Part shown: in pieces, positions 22,958 through 44,591 of the stretch | How positions within the stretch are numbered: position 1 is the stretch's first letter | How the letters are laid out: each line of letters begins with the position of its first letter | Origin: Phycisphaerae bacterium | Lineage (GTDB): Bacteria > Planctomycetota > Phycisphaerae > Sedimentisphaerales > Anaerohalosphaeraceae | Length of the DNA: 45,180 nt | Assembly (NCBI GenBank): GCA_014859965.1 | Contig: JACZKQ010000097.1 | Location: 1-45,180, forward strand | Direction of reading: 5' to 3' | Made by a program: the position numbers and the translations under genes | The notes under the pieces: generated by a model | Told to the model about the DNA's origin: nothing | What the model saw: the letters and a program-made list of their open reading frames with translations, nothing else | Databases searched by the model: none

Positions 22958-24361
22958 ATGGAGAAATGCGGGGTTCTGAGGCTGTGTGTCGTGTTTGCGG
23001 CGGCGCTGGGCGGCGGTCTGCCGGCGGCTTGGGCGGATGAACGGCCAACCGGCCGGTTGATGATCGTCGGGGAGCATATCGAGCGGCTCGTTCTGGTGGA
23101 CCAGCACGGTGAATCGCAGATTTATTCGGGCGACGATCTCAATACCGGCATTAGTCTGGCGCCGGATAGATACCGGCCTCGAGAAGTGTATTTGAAGGGC
23201 GGATACCAATGCCATCTCTGGTCGGAGATGCAGTTTGCGCCGGTGAAGGTCGAGGCGGGTCAAACAACGGAACTGAAGGTCGGGGCGCCGCTGACGCAGG
23301 GGCTCAAGGTTGAGCGGCGAGGCAAGTTGTTTCTGCTGCAGTACGAGCTGCAGGGCGTCGGCGGCGAAACGTATACGGCTGCGAACCGAGGCGCACCGCC
23401 CGAGTTTGCCGTATACAAGGGTGATCGCAAGGTAGGCGGCGGCCGATTTGAGTATGGCTGAGGCGGCACATGCTCGTACTCGTGGCGAGTACCTTTTCAT
23501 GTTCATGGTGATTTGAAATTCGTAGCTCAGCACGACCTGGGCGAGTTGGGGCCGAAGGAGAGTGCGGCGGTGACTGCGTCGTGGCGCCTTGTGGATCAGT
23601 TTTCAGGTCTGGCCGTCTGGGTGCTTCTGGCTGCGGCAATTGTCCTGTTAAAGGAGAATCGCAATCGAAAAGTGCTGCTGATCGTGCTGCCGGTAATAGC
23701 TGTGAACCTTCTGTGGATCGGTATCAAGTTGCTTCTTGCCAGCTCAGCGGGAATGCCATCCGGGTCGGCGGCGTTGTTTGACGTTCTGGTCGCGGGCTTC
23801 ACTGTCGGTGCGGCGCTGGTGTTGTTGATCGCGGGCCGATTCAAGGGTATGAATCGCTTCCTCATCGTGCTGTTGGCAGCGGCGGTGATGGCGGCCGCAT
23901 TCGCGCTGTCTTATATCGGTTCGCGGGGACTGGTCTTTGGCGGCGAGGCGATTCAACTGAGCATCTTCTTTGGCGTGATAACCGTGGCCGCAATGCTGGC
24001 CCTGGTGCTGGCGGGTCTGTTTTGCCGCAGGCATTTCGGGGCGGTCAAGTTTGCATTATGGCTCGGCGCCTGGTGCGTGCTCCTGTGCGCGGGCATGCTG
24101 CTGTCAGTGGCGCTTACCGTGGCGCTGGTGATGACGGCCCTGGGCAACCATATGTCCGTCTGGGGCCAGATCGGCAAGTTTATCTTCGCCGGTGGCACAA
24201 TGGGCGCGGTGGTCTATGTGTTTCTGCTGCCATTCGTGGTCCTGGCGATCAGCAGCGACCTTTTCGGCGGGCGGTTTTACGGGTGTTTCCGGCGGAAGGG
24301 TATGGTGATTCCGCAGGCGGGTGTAGAAGCGGACGTGGCAAACGACCGGCAAACGACTTAG
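22958..24361 (+). CDS. Candidate selenoprotein, FEYGU family, fused to a polytopic membrane domain
   Basis: Read with TGA 23459-23461 as Sec, this is one 467-residue protein with Sec at 168. It has a signal peptide (LCVVFAAALGGGLPAAWAD), an extracytoplasmic beta-rich domain (about 30-165) ending in FEYG-U-GGTCSYSWRVP, a short linker, then about eight membrane segments to the C terminus. The 5' and 3' parts are in the same frame with no stop but the TGA; the 3' part alone lacks an ATG or ribosome site (its first possible start is a TTG at 23513). AAGGAG lies 7 nt before ATG 22958. The Sec and the Cys four residues later form a UxxxC pair suited to redox chemistry outside the cytoplasm. A SECIS-like hairpin follows the TGA. 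The same motif and upstream domain recur in two genes at 37.4-38.8 kb. A conventional call would split it in two genes. Function unknown. Confidence 0.85.
23476..23492 (+). promoter_or_regulatory. Candidate bacterial SECIS element (FEYGU membrane protein)
   Basis: GTACTCG, loop TGG, CGAGTAC: a perfect 7-bp stem at +15 to +31 after the TGA, with the loop at +22 to +24. Position and small GU-containing tip fit what SelB recognises in bacterial mRNAs. Confidence 0.75.
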
Positions 24362-24435: not shown

Positions 24436-25299
24436 TTAGTTTGTGACCTCCTGCTGCTCTTCGACCCGTTCGGGGGCGGCAGGGCCTTCGAAAACGGTGC
24501 TGACGCCGAGTGCTCCGGGCCCGCAGCGTGTGCATTCGAGGCAGCGGATGCAGCCGTGGTGGTTGGGGTCATTGTCCGGTGCGCCGCCGTAGGCGCAGAG
24601 GGTGCGGCAGCGCTTGCATGCGGTGCATTTGTGGTCTTCGAGCCGCATGGACAGGACGCTGAAGCGATTGAGGAACCCGAAGATCGCGCCTAAGGGGCAC
24701 AGGACGCGGCACCAGGGGCGGATCGTGATGAACATCGCCACGATCATCGCGACGACGATGCTGATTTTGACGGCGTTGGGCCAGATGATTTCCTTGCCCG
24801 TGACGGCCTGCGTAATGACGTCCGGGACGGCCTTTTCGAGTGCGCCGGCCGGGCAGATGCGGCAGACAAACAGCGGGTGGCCTTCGCCGAAGAGATACGG
24901 AATCACGAAGACGGCGCCGATGAGCACGACATAACGGAAGTAACCGGTCCATAAGGGCAGACTGAATTTCTTGATGGGGACCTTGGCGCCCAAATCCTGG
25001 AGAAGCCCGAAGGGGCAAACCCAGCCGCAGATCAATGCCCCAAAGAGCGCACCCACTGCGAGAACGGTGCCGATGGCGAGGAAGGGGAACACATGTATGG
25101 CGCTGAATTGGGCCATGATCCCGATCGGGCACGCGAAGGTCGACAGGGGGCAGGCGTAGCAATGGAAGACGGGGCCGCACACGTTATGGAGGCGCAGACC
25201 AAACGGACCGAGCCAGGCAAATAGAAACCCGACTTGGACCCAAATCCGCCACGGCAGTATGCGGGCGACAAACCGATTCAGTTTTGTTTTCTTGACCAT
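24436..25299 (-). CDS. Membrane-bound polyferredoxin, NapH/CcoG-like
   Basis: A 287-residue integral membrane electron carrier. It has about five membrane segments carrying Cys-Pro motifs (CPLSTFACPIG, CGWVCPFG, CRICPAG, CRVLCPLG) and a C-terminal cytoplasmic pair of 4Fe-4S sites (CTACKRCRTLC and CIRCLECTRC). Proteins of this type pass electrons across or along the membrane from quinol or low-potential donors. The likely start is ATG 25299; no ribosome site precedes it, so translation is probably coupled to the upstream CxxU gene, whose SECIS-like hairpin includes this ATG. In the same operon as a candidate selenoprotein and convergent with the FEYGU membrane protein, it may feed electrons to these redox tails. 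Partner unknown. Confidence 0.88.
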   Translation of the reverse strand: MVKKTKLNRFVARILPWRIWVQVGFLFAWLGPFGLRLHNVCGPVFHCYACPLSTFACPIGIMAQFSAIHVFPFLAIGTVLAVGALFGALICGWVCPFGLLQDLGAKVPIKKFSLPLWTGYFRYVVLIGAVFVIPYLFGEGHPLFVCRICPAGALEKAVPDVITQAVTGKEIIWPNAVKISIVVAMIVAMFITIRPWCRVLCPLGAIFGFLNRFSVLSMRLEDHKCTACKRCRTLCAYGGAPDNDPNHHGCIRCLECTRCGPGALGVSTVFEGPAAPERVEEQQEVTN

Positions 25300-25312
25300 G
25301 GACACCACAGTC
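25294..25312 (-). promoter_or_regulatory. Candidate bacterial SECIS element (CxxU protein)
   Basis: GACTGTGG, loop TGT, CCATGGTC: an 8-bp stem with two G-U pairs at +15 to +33 after the TGA. It extends past the TAA of the CxxU gene and over the ATG of the ferredoxin gene. Confidence 0.6.
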
Positions 25313-30459: not shown

Positions 30460-30554
30460 TGGCGGAGGCGAATGGGAATCGAACCCACCCGGGACCTTAT
30501 CGGCCCCACAACGGTTTTGAAGACCGCGGGCAACACCAGTCACCAGTCACCTCC
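30460..30554 (-). tRNA. selC: tRNA-Sec (anticodon UCA)
   Basis: All hallmarks of bacterial tRNA-Sec are visible. The acceptor stem has 8 bp (GGAGGTGA with TCGCCTCC), the T stem 5 bp (GTGGG with CCCAT around TTCGATT), the D stem 6 bp (GGTGAC with GTTGCC) with a 4-nt loop, and there is a long variable arm (GGGGCC with GGTCCC). The anticodon loop is CTTCAAA, anticodon TCA at 30518-30520. The discriminator is G and CCA is encoded. It lies 24 nt after the selD stop on the same strand, so it is probably cut from the selD transcript. Confidence 0.97.
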
Positions 30555-30578
30555 GCATATTCATCAGTTATCGCCGCG

Positions 30579-32177
30579 TCACGGCTGCGGCTTATGCTGC
30601 TTGTAGAACATCATACACGGTGCGCCGCCGAATGCAATGCCCATCCACGCGGCCTCGTCGATTTCCTGCTCGGTAAAGCCTTTTTCGCGGGCCTTTGCGA
30701 TATGGCTGGCGACGCACGGCTCGCACCGCTGGGCGACGGACAGCGCAATGGAAATTGCCTGTTTGGTGTAGGCGTCCAGGCCGCCGGGGCGATTCACCTG
30801 CCCCATGAAGTCCATGAACTTCTGTTGGGCGCCCGATTCGTCCGCCGTGCCGGCAGCAGGCGTCGACGCAGCAGCAAGGGTCTCAGCACAGCATGCGGTT
30901 TCCGCCGGCGCGGCGGCCGGGGGCATAACAGCGGGCTCCTTCGGCGCCTTCTCCCTCGGTCGCGGGTCGGGCAGTGTTCGCTGGCCCGTCGTTCGCACAT
31001 GCACCTTGCCCGCGCCCCTGGCCAGGACTCTGCCGATCACCACAGCGGCCAATACGCCGGCTTCGTGCAGGGCCTTGAGCAGCGTGTCGGCCTTGCCCGG
31101 CTCGATAGCAATCAGCAGCCCGCCGGAGGTCTGGGCGTCAAAGCACATGTCCAGCATCTCGGGCGTGAGGCCTTCGCCTCCGATGACGCGGCCCCCGCAG
31201 GACTCCTTGTTGCGTTCGATCGCACCGGGCAATATCCCATCGGCGACGTATTGCAGCAGATGCGGAAAGACCGGCAAATCGTCCCAGACGACCTCCACGT
31301 CCACGCCGCTGGACAAAGCCATCTCCGACAGGTGGCCCATAAGGCTAAAGCCGGTCACGTCGGTGCAGGCGTGCGCGCCGAATTCGACCATCAGCCGCGA
31401 GGCCTCCTTGTTGAGCGTGGTCATGGATACGGCCGACGCCTCAACGCTTTCAGCGAACGCCCGGCCGATCTGCGAGGCGAACGCGATGATGCCTGTGCCC
31501 AGCGGCTTGGTAAGGATCAGCACGTCGTCGGGGCGGGCGGTGGCGTTGGCGGTAACCTGATTAATGGGCATAACGCCGGTGACCGCAAAGCCCGCCTTGA
31601 TCTCAGGGTCATTGATGCTGTGGCCGCCGATGATGGCGACGCCCGCCTCTTTCATCTTGTCGATGCCGCCGCGAAGGATTTCAGTGAGCGCGTTGTCGGG
31701 CACTTTGCGCACGGGAAAACCGATGACCGAAAGCGCCGTCAGTGGAATGCCGCCCATCGCGTAGATGTCGCTGACGGAGTTAGCGGCGGCGACCTGCCCA
31801 AAGGTGTACGGATCGTCGACCGACGGCGTGAATACATCGACCGTCTGCACGAGCGCCTTGCCGTCGCCGATATCGAAAATACCCGCGTCGTCGCCTGCCG
31901 GCACGCCGACCAGCACGCGCGGATCGTCGACCACGGGCAGCCCCTTGAGAACCTCCTTAAGGAATGCCTGATCGATCTTGGACGCGCAGCCGGCCTTCTC
32001 GATGAGGTGCGTGAGCTTGACCTCACCGGTCGGCGATTCGACCCGCTCACCCGCACAGAGGCAGATATCCTTCTCGCGGAACAGGTCGCAAGGGCAAGGC
32101 TTTCTGGCATCGCAGATGCAGTGACCCAGCTTGATCGAACGTTTCATGATCCGTTTGCGTTTTTCGAGATTACGCAT
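30579..32177 (-). CDS. selD: Selenophosphate synthetase with Cys-rich N terminus and C-terminal AhpD-like domain
   Basis: SelD makes selenophosphate from selenide and ATP. The core (about residues 53-400) is the usual PurM-like kinase, with the catalytic Cys64 and Lys67 in AGCASK (E. coli has GCGCK; the second Cys is Ser here). Two additions are unusual. Residues 18-45 hold three CxC pairs (Cys 20/22, 28/30, 39/41: CIC, CPC, CLC), which could bind an iron-sulfur cluster or a selenium species. Residues about 430-532 are a carboxymuconolactone decarboxylase/AhpD-like domain with CEPC at 485-488 and His492, the CxxCxxxH active-site pattern, joined by an Ala/Pro-rich linker. The 532-residue protein is far longer than the usual 345. 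It ends an operon with HgdB-like genes and precedes tRNA-Sec. Confidence 0.95.
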   Translation of the reverse strand: MRNLEKRKRIMKRSIKLGHCICDARKPCPCDLFREKDICLCAGERVESPTGEVKLTHLIEKAGCASKIDQAFLKEVLKGLPVVDDPRVLVGVPAGDDAGIFDIGDGKALVQTVDVFTPSVDDPYTFGQVAAANSVSDIYAMGGIPLTALSVIGFPVRKVPDNALTEILRGGIDKMKEAGVAIIGGHSINDPEIKAGFAVTGVMPINQVTANATARPDDVLILTKPLGTGIIAFASQIGRAFAESVEASAVSMTTLNKEASRLMVEFGAHACTDVTGFSLMGHLSEMALSSGVDVEVVWDDLPVFPHLLQYVADGILPGAIERNKESCGGRVIGGEGLTPEMLDMCFDAQTSGGLLIAIEPGKADTLLKALHEAGVLAAVVIGRVLARGAGKVHVRTTGQRTLPDPRPREKAPKEPAVMPPAAAPAETACCAETLAAASTPAAGTADESGAQQKFMDFMGQVNRPGGLDAYTKQAISIALSVAQRCEPCVASHIAKAREKGFTEQEIDEAAWMGIAFGGAPCMMFYKQHKPQP

Positions 32178-32207
32178 AGTCGTGTCCTATGTCAGCTTGA
32201 ACGTTAT

Positions 32208-32981
32208 TCAGTCTTTCCTCATTGCCATGATGGCGGCGCCGAGCGCGCCTGTGATTTGCGGGTGCGGGCAGATCGCCACCTCGCTGCCGAGGGCTTCGGC
32301 AAGGGCTCTGTCCATGCCGCCGACGAGTGCGACGCCGCCGGTGAAGATCACCGGGCCGTGGACGACCGCCCCGGCCATTGCGGCGGTTCGCCCCGCGATG
32401 GCGTGCATGACACCCGCGACGATGTCGGCGGGTTCAGCGCCCGAGGCGAGCAGCCCCACGATCTCCGTCTCCGCGAAGACGACGCACATGCTGCTGATCT
32501 GGGCGGGCCGGCGGCTTTGGCTTGCCAGTTCACCAAGGTCGCACAGTCGCACGGCGAGCCGGTCGGCGACGATTTCGAGAAATCGGCCGGTGCCCGCGGC
32601 GCAGCGGTCGTTCATGGCGAAGTCGCGGACCCTGCCACCGGTGTCGAGGTGCAGCAGTTTGCTGTCCTGGCCGCCAATGTCGATTACCGTGCGGGCCGTG
32701 TCGACGAGCCTGCGGACTCCGGCGGCATGGCAGGTGATCTCGGTGACGGTGGTGCCGGCGACAGAGACGATGGCTCGTCCGTACCCCGTAGCGACGGCGC
32801 CCGCGACGTCCGACTCCCCGATGCCATTCTCTTCGAGCAATTGCCTGTAAAGCCGCCCGGCGAGTTTCGCCTGTTCGACGCCCTGGTCGGCAATCGCCGA
32901 GGCGACGATGCGGCCCGATGGGCCGTCGAGCAGCACGATCTTGACGGCTCTTGAGCCCGCGTCGATGCCTGCGTAAATCAT
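32208..32981 (-). CDS. BadF/BadG/HgdC-type ATPase activator
   Basis: A 257-residue ATPase of the family that activates 2-hydroxyacyl-CoA dehydratases, benzoyl-CoA reductases and double-cubane proteins by ATP-driven electron injection. It starts with the ASKHA phosphate loop GIDAGSRAVK, followed by TVIDIGGQDSK and the cluster region MNDRCAAGTGRFLE and SSMCVVFAETE; the two Cys bind a 4Fe-4S cluster bridging a dimer in the family. FTGGVA completes the nucleotide site. The ATG overlaps the stop of the upstream gene (ATGA), so translation is coupled. selD begins 30 nt later. It is the expected partner of the three upstream dehydratase-like proteins. Confidence 0.93.
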   Translation of the reverse strand: MIYAGIDAGSRAVKIVLLDGPSGRIVASAIADQGVEQAKLAGRLYRQLLEENGIGESDVAGAVATGYGRAIVSVAGTTVTEITCHAAGVRRLVDTARTVIDIGGQDSKLLHLDTGGRVRDFAMNDRCAAGTGRFLEIVADRLAVRLCDLGELASQSRRPAQISSMCVVFAETEIVGLLASGAEPADIVAGVMHAIAGRTAAMAGAVVHGPVIFTGGVALVGGMDRALAEALGSEVAICPHPQITGALGAAIMAMRKD

Positions 32982-34363
32982 GGTTGCCTCCGTTGATGGA
33001 TGGTTTCGACGAGCGCCTCGATGCGGGTTGCGATGGCGGGGCGGATCGCATCGGTCAGCGGCGGAATTTCGATTTCGAGCACGGCAAGCCCGCATGTCTT
33101 GCGGAGGTGCTCGGCGATGATTCGGCCCTCGACGGCGCAGTGGCTTGCGCCCGGTATGCGGGAGATGATCACAGCCTCAGCCCCGAAGGTGCGGGCGTCG
33201 GCGGCGATGCGGGCGGCGCGGTCGACCGCCGAGCCGGCCATCGGATCGGCCAGTGCCGCCAGGGCGAGTGCTTCGAGCGGTTCGACATCTTCACGCAGGA
33301 GGTCCAGTGCGTGGGTAAACATGTATTCCGTGCCGCAGATCCTTGCCCCGTATTGTTCAAGCAGGTTCATCACCCGAAGGTCGGCGACAGGGTTGACCCA
33401 GAAGACCTTTACGGCGTCCGGGCTGCCGAAGCCGACTCCCGCGGCGATGCGAGCCTGCACCTCGGCGCCGAGTTCCTCAAGCACCGCCGCGGTTTCTTCG
33501 CGGTCGCTGCAGTAATGGATCGCCAGCATCTCGGCAATGAGCATCTCCAGCGCGGGCATGGGACAGCGCGACGCCGTGAAGACCGTGCGGCGGAGTTCCG
33601 AAAGCAGGCGGCGAATGTCGTTGGCGCGGGCGATGGCCGACGACAGCGCGGCGTCGTCGAGTTGGACGCCGGAGACCTCTTCGAGGGCCCTTTGCACGAG
33701 CACCAGTTGCGCCCGCACAAAGTCGACCTGCGATTGGGCAGCGACAAACGTTCCGCCCGGAAGCGTTACACATTGCTCGCCTTGTTCGGGACCCCGGCGG
33801 TGCGGGATTTCCCACCACACAATTGTGTGCCCGAGTCCCTCCAGCCGCTGGGCGATGGCGCTGAAGTCGTCGCATGTTGCCCCGACGCTGCACGTCAGCA
33901 GGTCCGGGATCGGAAAGTGATTGCCGGTGACGAACGCGCCCAGCATGGCTCGCACGGGGCAGAAAGATTCGTCGACACCGAGCGAGTCGGCGACGGCCAG
34001 CAGCCGGTCGCTGTTTTCCATCACGCAGGGAATCCACCATGCGCCGTCGGGGTAAAAGGCGACCACGTTATCCAGCGCATTGGCCATCACCGCCGTCGTG
34101 CCAAGGTCCTTCATCACGCCGACGATCTTCTTCCCCTCCGACCTCGCTTGCGTCAGGCGTTCTTCTTCAGTCAGCAGGAAATTCCACAGACGCAGCGCGG
34201 CGGCCGAATCATCGAACATCAGTTTTCGCAGGCGATAATCCCCATCCTCAGCGTGGCGGCTGAGTTTGCCCCCATAGAAGGGCTCCGCCAGTCCTGCCGA
34301 TTTCAACGCCTCATAGCGCCCGTCCCACTCGTCGAGCGTGATCTGTCGCAGCTTTTGCGTCAT
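32978..34363 (-). CDS. 2-hydroxyacyl-CoA dehydratase-like subunit (HgdB superfamily)
   Basis: A 461-residue protein related to the 2-hydroxyacyl-CoA dehydratase/benzoyl-CoA reductase subunits. Segments such as FCPVRAMLGAFVTGNHFPIPDLLTCSVGATCDD and a later WWEIPHR place Cys residues where the family binds its cluster; the second half repeats the fold (VFWVNPVADLRVMNLLEQYGARICGTEYMF). It starts at ATG 34363, overlapping the upstream stop (ATGA); an upstream in-frame ATG would overlap the previous gene by about 190 nt. It lies between a second HgdB-like gene and the ATPase, so it is probably one of two unlike subunits of an ATP-driven reductase. No CoA substrate can be inferred, and no CoA-transferase gene is nearby. 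Confidence 0.85.
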   Translation of the reverse strand: MTQKLRQITLDEWDGRYEALKSAGLAEPFYGGKLSRHAEDGDYRLRKLMFDDSAAALRLWNFLLTEEERLTQARSEGKKIVGVMKDLGTTAVMANALDNVVAFYPDGAWWIPCVMENSDRLLAVADSLGVDESFCPVRAMLGAFVTGNHFPIPDLLTCSVGATCDDFSAIAQRLEGLGHTIVWWEIPHRRGPEQGEQCVTLPGGTFVAAQSQVDFVRAQLVLVQRALEEVSGVQLDDAALSSAIARANDIRRLLSELRRTVFTASRCPMPALEMLIAEMLAIHYCSDREETAAVLEELGAEVQARIAAGVGFGSPDAVKVFWVNPVADLRVMNLLEQYGARICGTEYMFTHALDLLREDVEPLEALALAALADPMAGSAVDRAARIAADARTFGAEAVIISRIPGASHCAVEGRIIAEHLRKTCGLAVLEIEIPPLTDAIRPAIATRIEALVETIHQRRQP

Positions 34364-35268
34364 TGCAGCGTCTCCAGAAAAGCCTGTACGCGGCCGGCCG
34401 TCCGCTCGCCGGCGGCCGGGCTGTCGTCGCTGACATCCAGATCGAGCAGCGGCACGTGCAGGGCATCCCTGAGCCGATGAACTTCCGCATGCCAGAGGTC
34501 GCACCACACAAGACGCCGACAGATGACGCCCTGCACACGGCGCTCGGTGCATTCACGGGTGAGCCAGTCAAAGAGACCGGTGTTGGGTCGCTTCCAGACG
34601 GCGGGAATCGAATCGAAGTAAGCCCGCGCGAGTTCACCGACTGGATCCTGCCGCAGCAGCGCGGGATCGAACCGGTCCGGCAGCGTGCGCTCGCCGGTCT
34701 CGGTTGCGTCGAATACGATTCGCCCGCCGTTCCGCACGACCAGATCAAACAGCCCCGACTCTCCTGCGAGCAGAGGCCCGCCGACAAGTGCGAGCCGAAC
34801 GCCGCCGCTGTCGGCAACCCGACGGTCGGGCATCGCTTGCCTGCGCCCGTCAAAGTCAAGCATCGTCGCCGCCAGGGCATCGGCCGAAGGCACGCACCCC
34901 CCAAGGGTGTACAGCCACCGTCCCATGCGGCCAAGCTCGTCGATGTAAAGTTGAGTGCAAGCAGCGTTCCGCCACGTCTTGGGCAGATTCAACAGGAAGG
35001 TCTCCACGCATGTCCCATCGACCACGAGGTCGCGCACCCTGCGCATCTGGTCGCACGCGGTGGTGAAGATCGCCCCGCAGGATGTGCTGTCGCCGAGCAC
35101 GTGATTGGCAAATGCCCGGGCAAAGGGACAGAGGCCTTCGATTGGAGCGACTGCGGCATGCATCCCTGTCGACTGCGGCATTATGCGAGCGGGCCGCAAC
35201 CCGTGCGCGGCGATCCACTCGGCCGGGACGAACGGACATGTGTAGAGGATCTGCGACACGCCGGTCAA
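34360..35268 (-). CDS. 2-hydroxyacyl-CoA dehydratase-like subunit (HgdB superfamily)
   Basis: A 302-residue member of the same superfamily, shorter than the typical 380-430 residues. Its cluster-site cysteines are in LYTCPFVPAEWI, EGLCPFARAF, FTTACDQMRRVRD and RRLVWCDLWHAE, in family order. The start is a TTG overlapping the stop of the upstream gene (TTGA), and its own stop overlaps the next ATG (ATGA). Such tight coupling suggests subunits made in equal amounts. With the 461-residue neighbour it may form a heterodimer carrying iron-sulfur clusters, activated by the ATPase at 32208. Confidence 0.82.
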   Translation of the reverse strand: MTGVSQILYTCPFVPAEWIAAHGLRPARIMPQSTGMHAAVAPIEGLCPFARAFANHVLGDSTSCGAIFTTACDQMRRVRDLVVDGTCVETFLLNLPKTWRNAACTQLYIDELGRMGRWLYTLGGCVPSADALAATMLDFDGRRQAMPDRRVADSGGVRLALVGGPLLAGESGLFDLVVRNGGRIVFDATETGERTLPDRFDPALLRQDPVGELARAYFDSIPAVWKRPNTGLFDWLTRECTERRVQGVICRRLVWCDLWHAEVHRLRDALHVPLLDLDVSDDSPAAGERTAGRVQAFLETLQ

Positions 35269-36428
35269 TCCTTCCTTGCCATTTCGAATAACGCCTCGAC
35301 GCGGACCGCGATGCGGGCCGAGTCCGACGGCGAGTAGTCGGTTTCGATTTTCAGGTAGGGTAGCCCGAGTCTTTCAGCGGCAAGCCGCCGGACAAAATAC
35401 GACTCGACGTCGTAGGTCAAGCAGGCCTGCCAGACAAGGTCGATAATGCAGTCGGCTCGATATGTGCCGGCGAGTTGTTCGAGCATCTCCATGCGCCGGT
35501 CGTTTCGCGTCATCACCGAGCACGGCAGACGAAAATACTTCTCCGCGATCGCCTCCATCGGGTCGGCGGCGTTTTCGTCGACGTCTTCGAGAATGGGCTT
35601 CAGGCCGGTGCAGTTTTCCATGCAGACGACCAGACCTCCGTTTGCCTCGATAAGATCCACAATGCGTTCGGCCCCGTGCACCACGGGCACGCCGGTGAGA
35701 AGCACGCGCACCGGCCGCTTGCTCGCCCCTACCAACGGCGCCGAGCGATAAAGCTGCAGAGCCTCATCATACTGCTCGAAGTCGGCTTCAATACCTGATA
35801 TGCTGCTCTTGAAGTCGAGCAGTTGTCGTCCCGTAATCGGCGGTGCGTCACCGGCCATAAGCTGAGCTAATTGCCGCCTGAGGCCGCGTTCGCGATTCAT
35901 CGTACGGATCGCCCCGCGGAGTCTCTCATCGGTGATCCGCATATCGAATCGCCCCTCGAGAACGCGTTTGAACTTGTCCAGTTCGCTTCGCCAGTGCTGC
36001 ATGGCGTCGGCGTCGTCGGGTTTCTGCGCCAGTTCGAGCACGTGCATCGGCCGAGTCTCGGACAGAAGTTCATACATCTTCTTTTTGCCGTCGCACGTAG
36101 TCTCGGCGACGATAAGATCCGCCATTTCGAGAAAAGGGTTCGTCTTCTGAACGTGGTAGCCGTACGTCGATTTGATCAGCGGGCAAAGGTTCGCCGGCAG
36201 GTGCTGCTCGGCGGCCGCAATCGTCTGCTGCGAGCCCCCGCACAGACAGACCGGCACGGCGTCGGCCGCCAGAATCAATTCGCGCGGCGTAAACTCGCAC
36301 ATGATGCCCACGATGCCCCTGCCCTGTGCCTTGGCCCTCGTGGCGTATTCGCAGCATCGGCCGATCATACCGCCGAACCACGCACGCGGCCCGTCGCCTG
36401 GTTTGCTATTGGGACAGCATTGTGTCAT
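35265..36428 (-). CDS. Double-cubane cluster protein-like (YjiM/DCCP type)
   Basis: A 387-residue protein that resembles the E. coli YjiM/double-cubane cluster protein branch of the HgdB superfamily, in length and in motif order: GIMCEFTPRELILAADAVPVCLCGGSQ, NLCPLIKSTYGY, ADLIVAETTCDGKKKMYE and IDLVWQACLTYDVES near the end. Known members hold an unusual iron-sulfur double cubane and, when fed electrons by their ATPase, reduce difficult small molecules. The ATPase at 32208 would be the partner. Its stop overlaps the TTG start of the next gene. The presence of this protein in an operon ending in selD and tRNA-Sec is striking; the physiological substrate is unknown. Confidence 0.85.
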   Translation of the reverse strand: MTQCCPNSKPGDGPRAWFGGMIGRCCEYATRAKAQGRGIVGIMCEFTPRELILAADAVPVCLCGGSQQTIAAAEQHLPANLCPLIKSTYGYHVQKTNPFLEMADLIVAETTCDGKKKMYELLSETRPMHVLELAQKPDDADAMQHWRSELDKFKRVLEGRFDMRITDERLRGAIRTMNRERGLRRQLAQLMAGDAPPITGRQLLDFKSSISGIEADFEQYDEALQLYRSAPLVGASKRPVRVLLTGVPVVHGAERIVDLIEANGGLVVCMENCTGLKPILEDVDENAADPMEAIAEKYFRLPCSVMTRNDRRMEMLEQLAGTYRADCIIDLVWQACLTYDVESYFVRRLAAERLGLPYLKIETDYSPSDSARIAVRVEALFEMARKD

Positions 36429-36494: not shown

Positions 36495-37301
36495 TCAATC
36501 CTCTTTCCGGGCGACGAAAAGCCCCTGTGCGATACGGCCGTCGTGGGCGAGTTGCTGCATGAACTGCATCTCGCCGGCGATCGCCGTCAGCATGCCTTCG
36601 TCGAAGCCGATGATCTTTAGCACGTCATAGCCCAACTGCTTGCCGACCATGTCGAGGTACAAGTCGACGTAGGGCGCAAATCGGCCGGTGTCCTCGGCGG
36701 TGACGATGCGGCAGTTGTTTGCTTCCAGCAATCCACAGTAGCCGTCGATGTCCTCCATGTTGGCAAACTTCATGAACTTCATGAATCGTCCGGCCTGCTC
36801 GTCGGAAAGCCCCGCCGGCCCCTCTACCCAGTCGGTGAAGGCGATGACGCCGCCGGGTCGCACGATCCGCGCCGCCTCGGCGATGAGCCGCTCTTTGTCC
36901 TCAACATAGCACCACGCGTCTTCGCCCCAGACAAAGTCCACGCCATCGCTTTCGAGACCGCTGTCGCAAACATCGGCGAGCACGAAGTCAATGCGGTCGG
37001 CAAGGCCTTCCGCGCGGCAGCGCCGCTGCCCTTCTTTCACGACGGCTTCGGTAGCGTCCACGCCGACCATCCGTGCCGCGCCCTGCATGCGCACCAGGAA
37101 CCGCATGCCCGCGCCGGTGCAGCAGCACAGGTCGACGCCGTGGGCGCCGGCGGCAATACCCGCCTTTTCGCACAGGTCCAGCGACGAAAGGAACCCGCCG
37201 ATATGAATCTGTTCGCCCATGATCCGTTCCCACAACCGGCCTTCTGGGCCGCTGTAGACCTCCTGCACGTCCGTCAGAGCGATGCCTTCGATTCTCTTCA
37301 T
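36495..37301 (-). CDS. SAM-dependent methyltransferase
   Basis: A 268-residue class I methyltransferase. The SAM-binding glycine motif is GVDLCCCTGAGM, followed by VGVDATEAVV (acidic ribose contact), DFVLADVCD and FVWGEDAWCYVED; the C-terminal half resembles sarcosine/dimethylglycine or ubiquinone-type methyltransferases. It is the first gene of the run of minus-strand genes leading to selD (66 nt to the double-cubane protein) and lies after the terminator at 37328. It could methylate a small molecule in this pathway. A selenium-methylating role is possible only as speculation. The triple Cys in the SAM loop is unusual. Confidence 0.87.
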   Translation of the reverse strand: MKRIEGIALTDVQEVYSGPEGRLWERIMGEQIHIGGFLSSLDLCEKAGIAAGAHGVDLCCCTGAGMRFLVRMQGAARMVGVDATEAVVKEGQRRCRAEGLADRIDFVLADVCDSGLESDGVDFVWGEDAWCYVEDKERLIAEAARIVRPGGVIAFTDWVEGPAGLSDEQAGRFMKFMKFANMEDIDGYCGLLEANNCRIVTAEDTGRFAPYVDLYLDMVGKQLGYDVLKIIGFDEGMLTAIAGEMQFMQQLAHDGRIAQGLFVARKED

Positions 37302-37366: not shown

Positions 37367-37389
37367 GATATTCGTGACCGTATCTTGGT

Positions 37390-38061
37390 CTAATTAATCA
37401 TGTGCCAGGTTTCGTCCTGTTTCATCTCAAAGGGGCCCGACTCGACGTCGACAACTACGCGGAATGCGCCCTCGAAACCTTTTGGCACTCGCCACGAGTA
37501 CCGGCAGGTTCCGCCTCAGCCATACTCGAACTTGCCGGTCTGCAGCACATTGCCGGCCTTGTCGAGAATGGTGAATTTCGGCGCACCCACGGTCTTGCCG
37601 TTTCGCTTAAACATTGAATAATGTTCGCCGTGCGCTCCCACAAGCAACGGGGCGAGAAGCCGCACGCCGCTGCCCGCAGCGGTAACGTCAACCTTGGCAA
37701 TCAAAGGACCGTCCAGCTTCACGACCGTGGTCTGCCCTTTTTCGACAACGACAGGGGCCAGTTCGCCCCATGGTCCGTTGCTGTACACTTGCCATTCTTC
37801 CGTGGTCTTGCTTCCGCCGCCGGAGACAATCTGCTGCTCAAGAGTCCTGTACAATTGCACCGGCGTGTATTGGCCGGCCCTGATAGGCTGGGGTTCTGTG
37901 GTTGGCCCGACGGTAGCCCCCAACCCGAGCGATCCCCGAATAATCAGCCTCGCCCCTTCGGAGTCGGCTGCGATCATACCGGTTTTGCGCAGAGAGAGCA
38001 GCCCCGCGGCAACCAACCCCAAAGCGAGAAGAACCATTACAATCGCGACTAACTTTTTCAT
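37390..38061 (-). CDS. Candidate selenoprotein, FEYGU family
   Basis: With TGA 37516-37518 read as Sec this is a 223-residue protein, Sec at 182, ending at TAG. One N-terminal membrane helix or uncleaved signal (AIVMVLLALGLVAAGLLSL) anchors an exported beta-rich domain. The shared core runs from VVVEKGQTTVVKLDGPL through GEHYSMFKRNG and PKFTILDKAGNVLQTGK to FEYG-U-GGTCRYSWRVPKGFEG; 41 residues follow Sec. The paralog at 38151 aligns both before and after the TGA (GPFEMKQDETW against GPFETKQELEW), so the region after the TGA is a conserved protein. A strong terminator lies just past the TAG. A conventional call would stop at residue 181. Predicted role: extracytoplasmic UxxxC redox protein; substrate unknown. 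Confidence 0.88.
37484..37502 (-). promoter_or_regulatory. Candidate bacterial SECIS element (FEYGU protein, 37390 gene)
   Basis: GGTACTCG, loop TGG, CGAGTGCC: an 8-bp stem with one U-G pair at +14 to +32 after the TGA, loop at +22 to +24. Confidence 0.75.
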
Positions 38062-38150: not shown

Positions 38151-38834
38151 TCAGTAAACCGTATACCACTCCAGTTCCTGTTTTGTTTCAAACGGGCCGA
38201 GGTTTGCGTCGATTTTGACCTGGTACCGTCCCTTGAAAGATTGGGGCACCCGACACGAGTGCTTGCACACGCCGCCTCAGCCATACTCAAAATGCCCGGC
38301 TGCGAGCACCTGACCGTTTTCGCCCACAAGCTGAAACCTCGGGGCGGGCTCCCATGCGCCGTTTTTCAGGGCGCCCGGTACGTATTTTTCGCCGGCCTGT
38401 CCTTCCAGATGGACCCCCACAGTAACCCTGTTGCCGTACGCCTGAGCCTCGGTCCGGATGAACAGCGGCGGGCCGCTCTTGCTGTCGCGAACCACCACGC
38501 TGGATTGGCCTTTCATGAGTTGCAGGGTCCAGAGGTCTCCGTCCGCCGTGCGCATCTCGGGCGCCCCAAGCTTTTTCAGGCTAGGCATGTCGGGTTTAGA
38601 AGGCGTAAACAGGCGAATGCAGGCAATCGTCAGGATGACAGCGCCGCTGGCCGCAAGAAGCACTGCCGGCCTGCGCCACAACGGTCGCTCCTCATCGTAC
38701 CCGGCGAAGAGCGACTTGAGCCGGCGGAACCCATCCGTCGCCATCTGCCGGCCCTCCCCCGACTGGATCCGGTCCCAGACCCGAAGCACGGTCTGAGAAA
38801 TCAGACCGAACAGTGCCAAAATAAAGTTCTTCAC
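38151..38834 (-). CDS. Candidate selenoprotein, FEYGU family
   Basis: With TGA 38277-38279 read as Sec the protein has 227 residues with Sec at 186 and a TGA stop at 38151. The start is GTG 38834, 8 nt after GGAGGT. A cytoplasmic N-terminal part (about 60 residues) precedes one membrane helix (AVLLAASGAVILTIACIRLF), so the C-terminal domain would face outward. That domain shows KGQSSVVVRD, AGEKYVPGALKNG, PAPRFQLVGENGQVLAAGH and FEYG-U-GGVCKHSCRVPQSFKG, then GPFETKQELEW. Its resemblance to the 37390 gene continues for 41 residues beyond the TGA. Here the second Cys (SCRVP) replaces the Trp of the paralogs. It lies 89 nt upstream of the 37390 gene in the same orientation and shares its terminator. 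Confidence 0.87.
38246..38262 (-). promoter_or_regulatory. Candidate bacterial SECIS element (FEYGU protein, 38151 gene)
   Basis: GCACTCG, loop TGT, CGGGTGC: a 7-bp stem with one U-G pair at +15 to +31 after the TGA, loop at +22 to +24. Compared with the paralogs, a U-A pair has become C-G, a compensatory change. Confidence 0.75.
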
Positions 38835-38912
38835 TATAATGGACCTCCCGTAAAGCCGGCATTCCTCGCCATTTGCGCCTCCAATAGGGTCTCGCCGGCA
38901 GCCGGCCCACAC

Positions 38913-40469: not shown

Positions 40470-41876
40470 ATGAATGATTCGAGTCAGGAGCTTTTGCGGC
40501 GGATACCGTCAGTGGATGCCTTGTTAAAGCAGCCCCAGGTCGCCGGCCTTATCGACCGCTTCGGTCGCCGCATCGTGGCCGATTCGTTTCGCCGCGCCGC
40601 CGACAACGTCCGCCAGGCAATACTCTCCGGCCAAACACAGGGCTTCGACGACGGAGTCGATCTCCGCATCATGGCAGACGCCGCCGCCCGGGTCAAGGCG
40701 CTCACACACCGCCACTATCGCCGCGTCATCAACGCCGCCGGCATCGTCCTTCACACCGGCCTCGGCAGGGCGGTCCTCTGCCGCCAGGCCGTCGAGCAGC
40801 TCGCCGAAGAGATGGGCCACTACTCGCTCCTCCAGGTCGACACCGAAGAAGGCAAACGCTCCACCCGCGACAGCCACATCGAGCAACTGCTGCAAATCCT
40901 CACCGGCGCAGAAGCCGCCACAGTCGTCAACAACAACGCCGCCGCGACCTCCCTCGTGCTCAACACTGTCGCCGCCGGCCGCGAGGTCATCGTCTCGCGA
41001 GGCCAGCTCGTCGAGATCGGCGGCGCATTCCGCCTCCCCGACGTCATGGCCTTCAGCGGCGCAAAGATGATCGAGGTCGGCACGACCAACAAGACCCACG
41101 TCCGCGATTATGAAAACGCCATCACCGAAAACACCGCGGCCCTGTTGCGGGTCCATCCGAGCAACTACAAAATCCAGGGGTTCACCTCCGAGGTATCGCT
41201 CGATGACATGGTCGCCATAGCGCGCCGCCACAATCTCGTCATGATCGACGACGTCGGCGCCGGCTCTCTGGTCGATTTCTCAAAGTACGGTTTCGAGCCC
41301 GAGCCCACCCTCGCCCAGTCCGTCGCCGCCGGAAGCGACATCATCACCTCCAGCGCCGACAAGCTCATCGGCGCCTCCCAGGGCGGCATCATCCTCGGCC
41401 GCACCGCGTGGATCGACGCCGTCCGAAAAAACCAGTTCGCCCGCATCGTCCGCGTAGGCAAGCTCACACTGGCGGTCCTCGAAGCCACCCTGAAACTCTT
41501 CCTCGACGAAGCCGCCGCCCTGCGCGAGGTCCCCACCTGCCAAATGCTCCTGCGGCCCGCCGACGACATCGCCCGCCAGGCCAAACGCATCGCCGCCCAA
41601 CTCCAAAAGGCCCAACTCCCCGCCGAGATCGCGACCGCCCCTGGCTTCTCCCAAACCGGCAGCGGCTCTCTGCCCACCCAAAACATGCCGACGACCCTGG
41701 TCACGGTCACGCCCGCCAAGATGACCGCTGAAACCCTCGCCGCCCGCCTCCGCAGCCACAAAACCCCCATCTTCTCCCGAATCCAAAAAGCCCAGATCCT
41801 CCTCGACCCTAGAACCCTCCGAGAAGACGACGAAAAAATCCTCACCCAGGCCCTCATCGAACTCCTGAAGACATAA
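40470..41876 (+). CDS. selA: L-seryl-tRNA(Sec) selenium transferase
   Basis: SelA is a PLP enzyme that converts Ser-tRNA-Sec to Sec-tRNA-Sec with selenophosphate. The 468-residue length is typical. The N-terminal tRNA-binding part (RRIPSVDALLKQP) is present, the family segment NAAGIVLHTGLGRA follows, then NNNAAATSLVLNTVAAGREVIVSRGQLVEIGG, and the PLP lysine is K298 in SSADKLIGASQGG. It follows the DUF2283-like gene by 23 nt. selB is downstream but separated by an AbrB-Doc module, an unusual insertion because selA and selB are normally adjacent. Codon use is very C-rich on this strand. Confidence 0.98.
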   Translation: MNDSSQELLRRIPSVDALLKQPQVAGLIDRFGRRIVADSFRRAADNVRQAILSGQTQGFDDGVDLRIMADAAARVKALTHRHYRRVINAAGIVLHTGLGRAVLCRQAVEQLAEEMGHYSLLQVDTEEGKRSTRDSHIEQLLQILTGAEAATVVNNNAAATSLVLNTVAAGREVIVSRGQLVEIGGAFRLPDVMAFSGAKMIEVGTTNKTHVRDYENAITENTAALLRVHPSNYKIQGFTSEVSLDDMVAIARRHNLVMIDDVGAGSLVDFSKYGFEPEPTLAQSVAAGSDIITSSADKLIGASQGGIILGRTAWIDAVRKNQFARIVRVGKLTLAVLEATLKLFLDEAAALREVPTCQMLLRPADDIARQAKRIAAQLQKAQLPAEIATAPGFSQTGSGSLPTQNMPTTLVTVTPAKMTAETLAARLRSHKTPIFSRIQKAQILLDPRTLREDDEKILTQALIELLKT

Positions 41877-42671: not shown

Positions 42672-44591
42672 ATGGCGACATCAAAAATCAACATTACGTT
42701 AGGCACGGCCGGGCACATTGACCACGGCAAAACGGCCCTGATCAAGCTGCTCACCGGCTGCGATACGGACTTCCTCAAGGAGGAGAAAGAGCGGGGCATG
42801 TCGATCGAGCTGGGCTTTGCCCCCTGCACCATCGCCGACCTCGAAGTCGGCATCGTCGACGTCCCCGGCCACGAGCACTTCATCAAAACCATGGTCGCCG
42901 GCGCCACCGGCATCGACGGCGTCATCTTCGTCATCGCCGCCGACGACGGCGTCATGCCGCAGACCCGCGAGCACCTCGACATCCTCACGCTGCTCGGCGT
43001 CGCCCACGGCATCGTCGCCCTCACGAAGGTCGACGCCGTTTCGCCCGAGCGGGTCGCCGCGGTCACCGACGAGGTCCGCCGCTTCCTGACCGGCACGTTC
43101 CTCGCCGACGCCCCCATCCTGCCGATGTCCTCCATCACCGGCCAGGGCTTCGACGGCTTCTACGAAGGCCTCCGAGACCTCGTCGCCCAAATCCGCCCGC
43201 GCACCGTCGAAGGCGTGTTCCGCCTCCCGATCGAAAAGACCTTCTCCGTAAAAGGCTACGGCTCCGTAGTCACCGGCATCCCCGTCTCCGGCTGTGCCGC
43301 CGTCGGCGACGAGGTTGTGCTCCTGCCGCAGGGCCAGAAGGGCCGCATCAAAGCCATCCAGGTCTACAGCAGCCCCGCCGAGCAGGTCCTCTCCGGCCAG
43401 TGTGCCGCCCTCAGCGTCCCGCAGTGGGACTACCGCAGTATCGTCCGCGGCAACGTCGTCACCGTCGGCCGCTACTTCGCCCCGCGCCAGTGGTACCTCT
43501 GCAAGCTGCAAATGCTGCCGCAGGACAAGCTCTTCCTCAAGACCGGCACGCAGGTCAAGTTCCACACCGGCGCAAGCGAAGTCGTCGCCAAGGTCTACCT
43601 CATGGAGGGCAACACAATCACCGCCGGCCGCGAGCAGGTCGTCCAGATCCACACCGAGCGGCCCGTGGTCGCCGCCCCCGGCGACCGCTTCATCATCCGC
43701 ACGCCCAGCCCCGCCAACACCATCGGCGGCGGCCTCATCGTCGAAGCCATGGACCAGCGCATCCGCCGCAGTCGGCCGGACCTCCTCGACGAGGCACGCG
43801 CGCGGGCCGAAGCCGTCTCCGGCGAACTCAGCTTTCTCGAATACTGCGTCAAAACCGCAGAAGGCGGCGCCGCAAACCCGCAGCAGCTTTCCCTCCGCGC
43901 AAAAATCCTGCCGCCGCGACTGGACATGCTCCTGACGCAATTGCAGCAGGCCGGCACAATCACCCGCCTCTCCGGCAATCTGTTCGTACACGTCTCGGCC
44001 GCCGAGCAACTCGAAAACAAGCTCACCGACGCCGTGCGCCAGTTTCACAACACCCAGCCCGAGAGCCCCGGCATAGCCCCCGACGCGCTGCTGCACGCCT
44101 CCGGCCTCAATAAGAACGTCTTCGACGGCCTCCTCGAACGCATGCTGGCCGCCGGCACACTGACCCAGCGAAAAGGCTGCATCGCGCTGCCCGAACATCG
44201 CGAGGATTTCGACCCCGCCCAGCGCCGCCTGCTCGCGTCGGTCGAGGACCTGTTCGCAAAGCGCCTCTTCAACCCGCCGTCCATCGACGAAGCCGCCGCC
44301 GCCATCGGCGTGCCCGTCGGGGCGGTCCAGAAGACGGTCCGCATCCTCACCGAGCAGCAGACCCTCGTGCAGATCGACCGCGACAACGTCTTCCACAGCA
44401 AGGCAATCCGCGAGGCCTCAAGACGCCTCACGGAGCACATCCAAAAAGAAGGAAAGCTTGAAAGCGTCGCCTTCAAGTACCTGCTCGACACAACCAGAAA
44501 ATGGGCGATTCCGCTGCTCGACTACATGGACAAGATCGGCGTAACAATGCGCTCCGGAAACACACGCTACCTCAAGAAACCCCTCGCTTAG
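42672..44591 (+). CDS. selB: Selenocysteine-specific elongation factor
   Basis: SelB carries Sec-tRNA-Sec to ribosomes paused at UGA with a SECIS. The 639-residue protein has the G domain at the start (GTAGHIDHGKTALIKLLTG, then DVPGHE and TKVD), two EF-Tu-like barrel domains up to about residue 370, and winged-helix domains from about 380 to the end, the last of which bind the SECIS hairpin (DKIGVTMRSGNTRYLKK is the typical end). GGGAGAT precedes the ATG. The complete SECIS-binding end supports active decoding. It starts 72 nt after doc and is followed by the PGUGSP gene. Confidence 0.98.
   Translation: MATSKINITLGTAGHIDHGKTALIKLLTGCDTDFLKEEKERGMSIELGFAPCTIADLEVGIVDVPGHEHFIKTMVAGATGIDGVIFVIAADDGVMPQTREHLDILTLLGVAHGIVALTKVDAVSPERVAAVTDEVRRFLTGTFLADAPILPMSSITGQGFDGFYEGLRDLVAQIRPRTVEGVFRLPIEKTFSVKGYGSVVTGIPVSGCAAVGDEVVLLPQGQKGRIKAIQVYSSPAEQVLSGQCAALSVPQWDYRSIVRGNVVTVGRYFAPRQWYLCKLQMLPQDKLFLKTGTQVKFHTGASEVVAKVYLMEGNTITAGREQVVQIHTERPVVAAPGDRFIIRTPSPANTIGGGLIVEAMDQRIRRSRPDLLDEARARAEAVSGELSFLEYCVKTAEGGAANPQQLSLRAKILPPRLDMLLTQLQQAGTITRLSGNLFVHVSAAEQLENKLTDAVRQFHNTQPESPGIAPDALLHASGLNKNVFDGLLERMLAAGTLTQRKGCIALPEHREDFDPAQRRLLASVEDLFAKRLFNPPSIDEAAAAIGVPVGAVQKTVRILTEQQTLVQIDRDNVFHSKAIREASRRLTEHIQKEGKLESVAFKYLLDTTRKWAIPLLDYMDKIGVTMRSGNTRYLKKPLA

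Follow-up and report, generated by a model that had tools for sequence, protein, structure and literature searches.

Why should genes for three HgdB-superfamily reductases and an activating ATPase run directly into selD and tRNA-Sec in a Phycisphaerae bacterium? The junctions were read directly from the sequence of the window, which is the whole stretch of 45,180 nucleotides that was analysed, and all genes from HgdB1 to tRNA-Sec lie on the minus strand. HgdB1, a double-cubane-cluster protein of the DCCP type (35265..36428; PF06050, E 5.5e-98), overlaps by 4 nt (TTGA) the short HgdB-superfamily subunit HgdB2, which has a TTG start (34360..35268; PF06050, 1.7e-29). The third subunit, HgdB3 (32978..34363; PF06050, 7.6e-37), has a 4-nt overlap at each end, both ATGA, with HgdB2 on one side and on the other, with GGAGG upstream, an activating ATPase of the BadF/BcrA/HgdC type (32208..32981; BcrAD_BadFG 7.2e-53, TIGR00241 8.3e-72). 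A spacing of 30 nt leads from the ATPase to SelD (30579..32177), and 24 nt separate SelD from tRNA-Sec (30460..30554; anticodon TCA; ARAGORN; Rfam RF01852, 77.2 bits, 2.7e-14). The preliminary description had given this order, the overlaps and the 30-nt spacing, and all were confirmed to the base. The gene order is not a chance product, because the same order recurs across dozens of genomes.

The operon outline of the preliminary description stands from the HgdB trio through the ATPase and selD to tRNA-Sec, but the unit was drawn too small. A SAM-dependent methyltransferase, MT (36495..37301, minus strand; Methyltransf_11, 7.6e-16), immediately precedes the HgdB genes at most of the related loci and accompanies them and the ATPase in relatives. 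The conserved module is thus MT, three HgdB proteins and the ATPase, with MT as its first gene. The module genes contain no in-frame TGA, the sole TGA in any matched stretch being in the SelD of locus L221. The same island also holds SelA (40470..41876, plus strand; TIGR00474, 547.8 bits) and SelB (42672..44591, plus strand), the latter named by reading from a 639-aa ORF at the expected place with homologues at the same position in relatives. It further holds three genes with an in-frame TGA and a gene for a NapH/MauN-like membrane 4Fe-4S protein (24436..25308, minus strand). This protein is 58% identical to one of locus L141, which matches TIGR02163 at 1.8e-22, below the cut-off of that model, and its assignment draws also on synteny beside tRNA-Sec in relatives. 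Such proteins repeatedly adjoin tRNA-Sec and selD (L138:2223-3086, L139:7376-8236, L160:14718-15833, L217 and L231), in Omnitrophota too, and the NapH/MauN-like protein is a possible electron partner. Between the ATPase and selA of three Omnitrophota loci (L214, L217 and L231) lie, within the Sec region, genes whose products by eye resemble trypsin-like/PDZ and NifX-domain magnetosome-type proteins.

SelD of the window is of the Cys type and passes TIGR00476 with 351.6 bits (cut-off 125; AIRS/AIRS_C domains); Cys64 of its GCASK motif is 97% conserved. It carries an N-terminal extension with six cysteines (Cys20, 22, 28, 30, 39 and 41) that are conserved at 97-100% in 35 homologues, and it is fused to a C-terminal AhpD/CMD domain (CMD 3.1e-16) whose CxxC at 485/488 is conserved at 86% in the same homologues. 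A SelD with the six-Cys N-terminus, a CC pair in the linker and the AhpD domain is common to the module-adjacent SelD of several phyla. We rejected the SelD-AhpD fusion as a module-specific mark, since transporter-adjacent SelD can be fused too and module-adjacent SelD can be without the domain (L140 and L145).

The preliminary description had proposed a survey of gene order and co-occurrence for the trio, the ATPase and selD. We ran it on 98 genomes of the host's order, which are draft MAGs, with statistics uncorrected for phylogeny. SelD is present in 20 of the 98. Full-length HgdB3 is present in 14, and all 14 encode SelD (Fisher p 1e-12, uncorrected for relatedness). The module sits beside selD in 13 of these 14 genomes and on a separate contig in G253. 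HgdB3 fragments, together with the transporter described below and the selenoprotein motif, are also present in G291; SelD was not found in this genome, probably because of an assembly gap. Distances between SelD proteins correlate with those between module proteins at r 0.71-0.83, no less strongly than two module proteins correlate with each other (0.63). The module is nearly confined to genomes that encode the Sec system, which speaks against the objection that the trio might occur in species without one. It very likely belongs to selenium or Sec metabolism. The link to selenium that had been suggested is well supported; in the role proposed, the proteins would reduce a selenium compound.

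What replaces the module in the six of the 20 SelD-encoding genomes of the order that do not have it? In four of the six (G283, G271, G267 and G205) a three-gene ABC transporter lies directly before selD. Loci with the transporter in this place, where the module is missing, are L138:5142-7898, L139:10142-12801, L143:5834-8559, L148:3228-5963 and L170:1205-4038. It consists of an NMT1-type binding protein with an HPCCC motif, a permease and an ATPase, and is NitT/SAO-like. The most telling functional clue is an exact exchange between two genomes of one genus, G275 and G283 (L136 and L138), whose flanks match at 88.5% over 2.1 kb and at 90.4% over 4.9 kb. Between these flanks G275 has 6.1 kb with the MT-HgdB-ATPase module and G283 has 3.7 kb with the binding protein, permease and ATPase, and the right-hand breakpoint of the swap is the start of selD. 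The binding protein occurs in eight of the 98 genomes, namely five of the six module-minus genomes with SelD, two of the 14 module-plus genomes, which thus carry both, and G291. The complementarity of transporter and module among the 20 SelD-encoding genomes has a p value of 0.007, which is uncorrected for phylogeny and comes from few genomes. Five additional transporter carriers were found in the phylum sample, and each of them encodes SelD. The interchange of an importer and a reductase module directly before selD suggests two ways to supply the substrate of SelD. The transporter is therefore a candidate selenium importer, and we see about an even chance that the module works on the supply side.

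The swap could also concern a metal, because the closest models of the transporter concern organometals. SAO denotes selenocysteine-assisted organometal systems, which have been proposed for soft metals and metalloids. The transporter subunits match SaoX, SaoP and SaoA, all below cut-off (34, 151 and 232 bits against 300, 295 and 360), and the subunits inspected contain no TGA. It is conceivable, though unlikely, that mercury, arsenic, tellurium or another soft metal or metalloid is what both the module and the alternative transporter deal with, in an SAO-like way, with the Sec genes nearby since selenoproteins join the pathway. The resemblance of MT to the ArsM/SDMT superfamily, with its conserved cysteines, and the UxxxC loop of the island selenoproteins are in keeping with this. 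On the other hand, the module is tied to selD, selA and selB themselves in phyla that gave no match to the local selenoprotein motif (Omnitrophota and Myxococcota), and no metal-resistance neighbour recurs among the recognised genes.

The three genes with an in-frame TGA encode predicted selenoproteins of one family. The first (37387..38061, minus strand; TGA 37516-37518) reads FEYGUGGTCRYSWRVP and was found by reading through the TGA and by pattern search, with homologues that have the same TGA in many loci. The second (38151..38912, minus strand, start uncertain; TGA 38277-38279) reads FEYGUGGVCKHSCRVP, and the third, membrane-anchored (22958..24361, plus strand; TGA 23459-23461), reads FEYGUGGTCSYSWRVP. 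The family motif, [FY]xYGUGGxC(R/S)YSWRVP, lies close to the C-terminus of the proteins, which are beta-rich and often anchored in the membrane. Members occur also in L136, L138, L140, L156, L174 and other loci, and the host genome, which was probed by pattern, has five matches. The DNA pattern is found in 19 of the 20 SelD-encoding genomes of the order; the credible matches in SelD-minus genomes are just those of G240 and G291, and one in G269 looks like chance. As the pattern tracks SelD almost perfectly in the order and a reversed-pattern control gave no matches, the TGA very probably encodes Sec. In a structure model (pLDDT 82) a transmembrane helix accompanies a beta-rich domain with the Sec in a low-confidence loop, and the strongest matches are weak ones to beta-sandwich domains. 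The proteins have no Pfam match and reach 13.3 bits (E 0.08) with the OS_HP2 model NF041425, whose cut-off is 100. Since the family is also absent from the 119 families of a 2026 review (PMC13188914), it is apparently an uncatalogued selenoprotein family.

Does the module serve these proteins? The second role that had been suggested was the maturation of selenoproteins, in which the module would mature or reductively activate them instead of supplying selenium. Genes of the YGUGGxC family often adjoin the module, and very-low-potential reductases are known as activators of other systems, which would fit such a role. However, five module-minus genomes (G283, G271, G267, G205 and G234) retain YGUGGxC selenoproteins, and the motif is missing in 17 of the 35 module-carrying genomes tested, including Omnitrophota and Myxococcota in which the module flanks selD. 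Each is thus found without the other, and we rejected the family as the general client of the module. This independence indicates that it is the Sec genes, not this client, to which the module is coupled. An in-place replacement by an importer is also hard to explain by maturation, which we regard as rather improbable. Because of the ABC-transporter swap and the independence of the module from the selenoprotein family, selenide supply is favoured of the two roles.

The association extends well beyond the order. When 84,980 species genomes were scanned with a query that includes the window, 80 loci were selected for their similarity to it. They come from about nine phyla (Planctomycetota, Armatimonadota, Myxococcota, Sumerlaeota, Hydrogenedentes, Lentisphaerae/Verrucomicrobiota/Kiritimatiellae, Omnitrophota and Riflebacteria among them), and 51 of the 80 have at least one of selA, selB, selD and tRNA-Sec. 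At least four arrangements are seen. The module can precede SelD, follow SelD (L183, L207 and L217), follow SelA-SelD-SelB (L178 and L212), or lead from its ATPase into SelA (L199 and L218). Such different gene orders argue for a repeated association and not one inherited accident. SelA above its curated cut-off was detected in 26 of the 30 genomes that have no selA, selB or selD near the module. The four module carriers with no SelA (L181, L203, L223 and L229) may be incomplete genomes; the L202 genome has SelB and SelD beside the module, yet no SelA was detected. With the Sec-gene neighbourhood recurring across phyla, the trio is not equally common beside unrelated genes, an outcome that would have spoken against the link.

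Two anaerobic traits could instead share one mobile island and co-occur as both suit anoxic habitats, with no functional link between them. The island does act as a unit and is patchy in the order, and SelD is in any case widespread in the phylum (136 of 199 genomes sampled). We discounted whole-phylum co-occurrence as evidence, because with SelD so common it says little; most Sec users there lack the module, which is present in about 11 of the 136 SelD-encoding genomes, and module carriers of the wider phylum have it away from selD. The absence of a link is nevertheless hard to reconcile with the several gene orders in several phyla and the repeated adjacency to selD, and Sec genes persist in genomes where they are not linked to the module. 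We hold it to be quite improbable.

HgdB1 passes the double-cubane-cluster reductase model NF040772 with 418.1 bits (cut-off 350). It aligns with the solved DCCP structures 6eno and 7yyl at E 1e-60, with Cys44, 63, 82, 112, 273, 303 and 336 aligned, and these seven cysteines are 95-100% conserved in 64 homologues. In HgdB2, Cys47, 72 and 256 are conserved at 96-100%. In HgdB3, which resembles DCCP, 3o3m and BzdN/BzdO structures, Cys113, 135, 164, 285 and 409 are conserved at 100% in 81 homologues. Against the equivalog models for dehydratases and benzoyl-CoA reductases, with cut-offs above 400, the best scores of HgdB2 and HgdB3 were 24 and 19 bits, so that by sequence they are placed in the same superfamily as HgdB1 and among none of its named enzymes. 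The ATPase passes the activator model TIGR00241, of the acyl-CoA dehydratase activase type, with 241.7 bits (cut-off 125.4), and its Cys84, 127 and 166 are invariant. MT ranks with the most strongly conserved parts: in an alignment of 26 rows drawn from several phyla its mean column identity is 74%, Cys59 and Cys131 are invariant and Cys60/61 nearly so, with conserved Cys near the SAM loop. Its AlphaFold model is confident and is closest to small-molecule SAM methyltransferases such as SDMT and PMT (phosphoethanolamine methyltransferase), and its 52.2 bits with the DVU_1556 family model NF045667 are below the cut-off of 155. Elsewhere the host genome encodes two further HGD-D proteins (G000 C37:29794-30885 and C84:2601-2789), one of them inside a 1358-aa frame that is possibly an activase-HgdB fusion. 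An ordinary operon of carbon metabolism, of the 2-hydroxyacyl-CoA dehydratase or benzoyl-CoA reductase-like kind, would account for the PF06050 and BcrAD_BadFG domains but is highly improbable, given that HgdB2 and HgdB3 fall far below every such cut-off, that the neighbours are Sec genes instead, and that, as previously noted for this locus, no CoA-pathway gene is recognised as a recurrent neighbour in about 90 loci, whose neighbour families were named in part.

How would such a module serve SelD? The cassette probably prepares selenium for selenoprotein synthesis. By a slightly better than even chance it is a selenium-supply module, in which the reductases make selenide or an enzyme-bound equivalent for SelD from selenium that is poorly usable by thiols. 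Activator ATPases couple ATP hydrolysis to very-low-potential electron transfer into HgdB-type clusters, and here the ATPase would drive such electrons into the iron-sulfur proteins of the module. HgdB1 would be a double-cubane reductase, and HgdB2 and HgdB3 would likely form a second reductase of heteromeric type. The substrate would be zero-valent or organic (e.g. methylated) selenium that ordinary thiols use poorly, and the product selenide or its enzyme-bound equivalent. A low-potential reductase would suit thiol-resistant selenium, because the step from oxidation state zero to selenide takes place at low potential. The Cys-rich N-terminus and the AhpD domain of SelD may accept the selenium or keep it reduced, and SelD would convert the product to selenophosphate for SelA. 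Through its conserved cysteines MT probably works on this selenium pool as well, either as an outlet for excess or by providing the second half of a methyl cycle. What the sequences show is the gene content, the conserved linkage to Sec genes, the near-restriction to Sec users, the conserved cysteines and the replacement in place by an ABC transporter; selenium as the substrate, the direction of the reaction, the division of labour among the HgdB proteins and the role of MT are what we infer. More tentatively, a dedicated ATP-driven low-potential selenium reductase might be the missing selenide donor, which some species traded in place for a dedicated selenium importer.

According to the literature (PMC13188914, PMC11097638), it is understood only in part from which donor and in what form SelD receives its selenium, and an importer dedicated to selenium has yet to be identified in bacteria. 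A selenide-supplying module would be a concrete candidate for the first gap, and the transporter that replaces it is one for the second, where it would be the first specific selenium importer in bacteria. Double-cubane reductases would also gain a natural role. The natural swap between sister species makes the supply idea directly testable. Double-cubane proteins near Sec genes are already known (PMC5322559, PMC10418091). In Slackia heliotrinireducens, HgdB subunits and an activase are tabled without discussion among the genes near selA, selB and selD (Lin et al. 2015, PMC5322559, Table 1). Kountz and Balskus (2023, PMC10418091) tied double-cubane proteins and clusters of corrinoid methyltransferases to the use of methyl-selenide in anaerobes; certain anaerobes supply SelD from methylated selenium, and DCCP genes are found in the clusters concerned. 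Our literature search, outside which most subscription journals lay, found no description of the module, and as far as searched the conserved module, the swap and the YGUGGxC family are new.

Among known systems, the DCCP and ATPase of Carboxydothermus hydrogenoformans (6eno, 7yyl) are alike in that HgdB1 is a member of the same curated model, keeps the cysteines and has an adjacent activating ATPase. Unlike that pair, the present module has two more HgdB paralogues and a SAM methyltransferase and lies upstream of selD. To our knowledge, no natural substrate of DCCP has been established. With (R)-2-hydroxyacyl-CoA dehydratases and class I benzoyl-CoA reductases the module shares the fold family, ATPase-driven single-electron chemistry and the three-Cys pattern of HgdB2 and HgdB3, whereas its proteins meet no equivalog model of these enzymes and have no CoA genes nearby. 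The SAO transporter provides the best NCBIfam matches of the alternative cassette, all sub-cut-off as given above; the cassette differs in sitting before selD and in the TGA-free subunits that were inspected. The Slackia region likewise has 2-hydroxyglutaryl-CoA dehydratase subunits and a CoA-type activase near selA, selB and selD, but is organised with YedF, DUF3343 and Sec lyase, and the likeness noted is one of gene content (PMC5322559). The type 1 mlp clusters (PMC10418091) also belong to Sec-using anaerobes, concern selenium supply from methyl-selenide, and sometimes include DCCP and selABD. Their basis is a set of corrinoid methyltransferases together with a corrinoid protein and RACE. 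No such component was noticed in the present case; here the methyltransferase is of the SAM type, the HgdB trio forms the core, and the phyla differ too.
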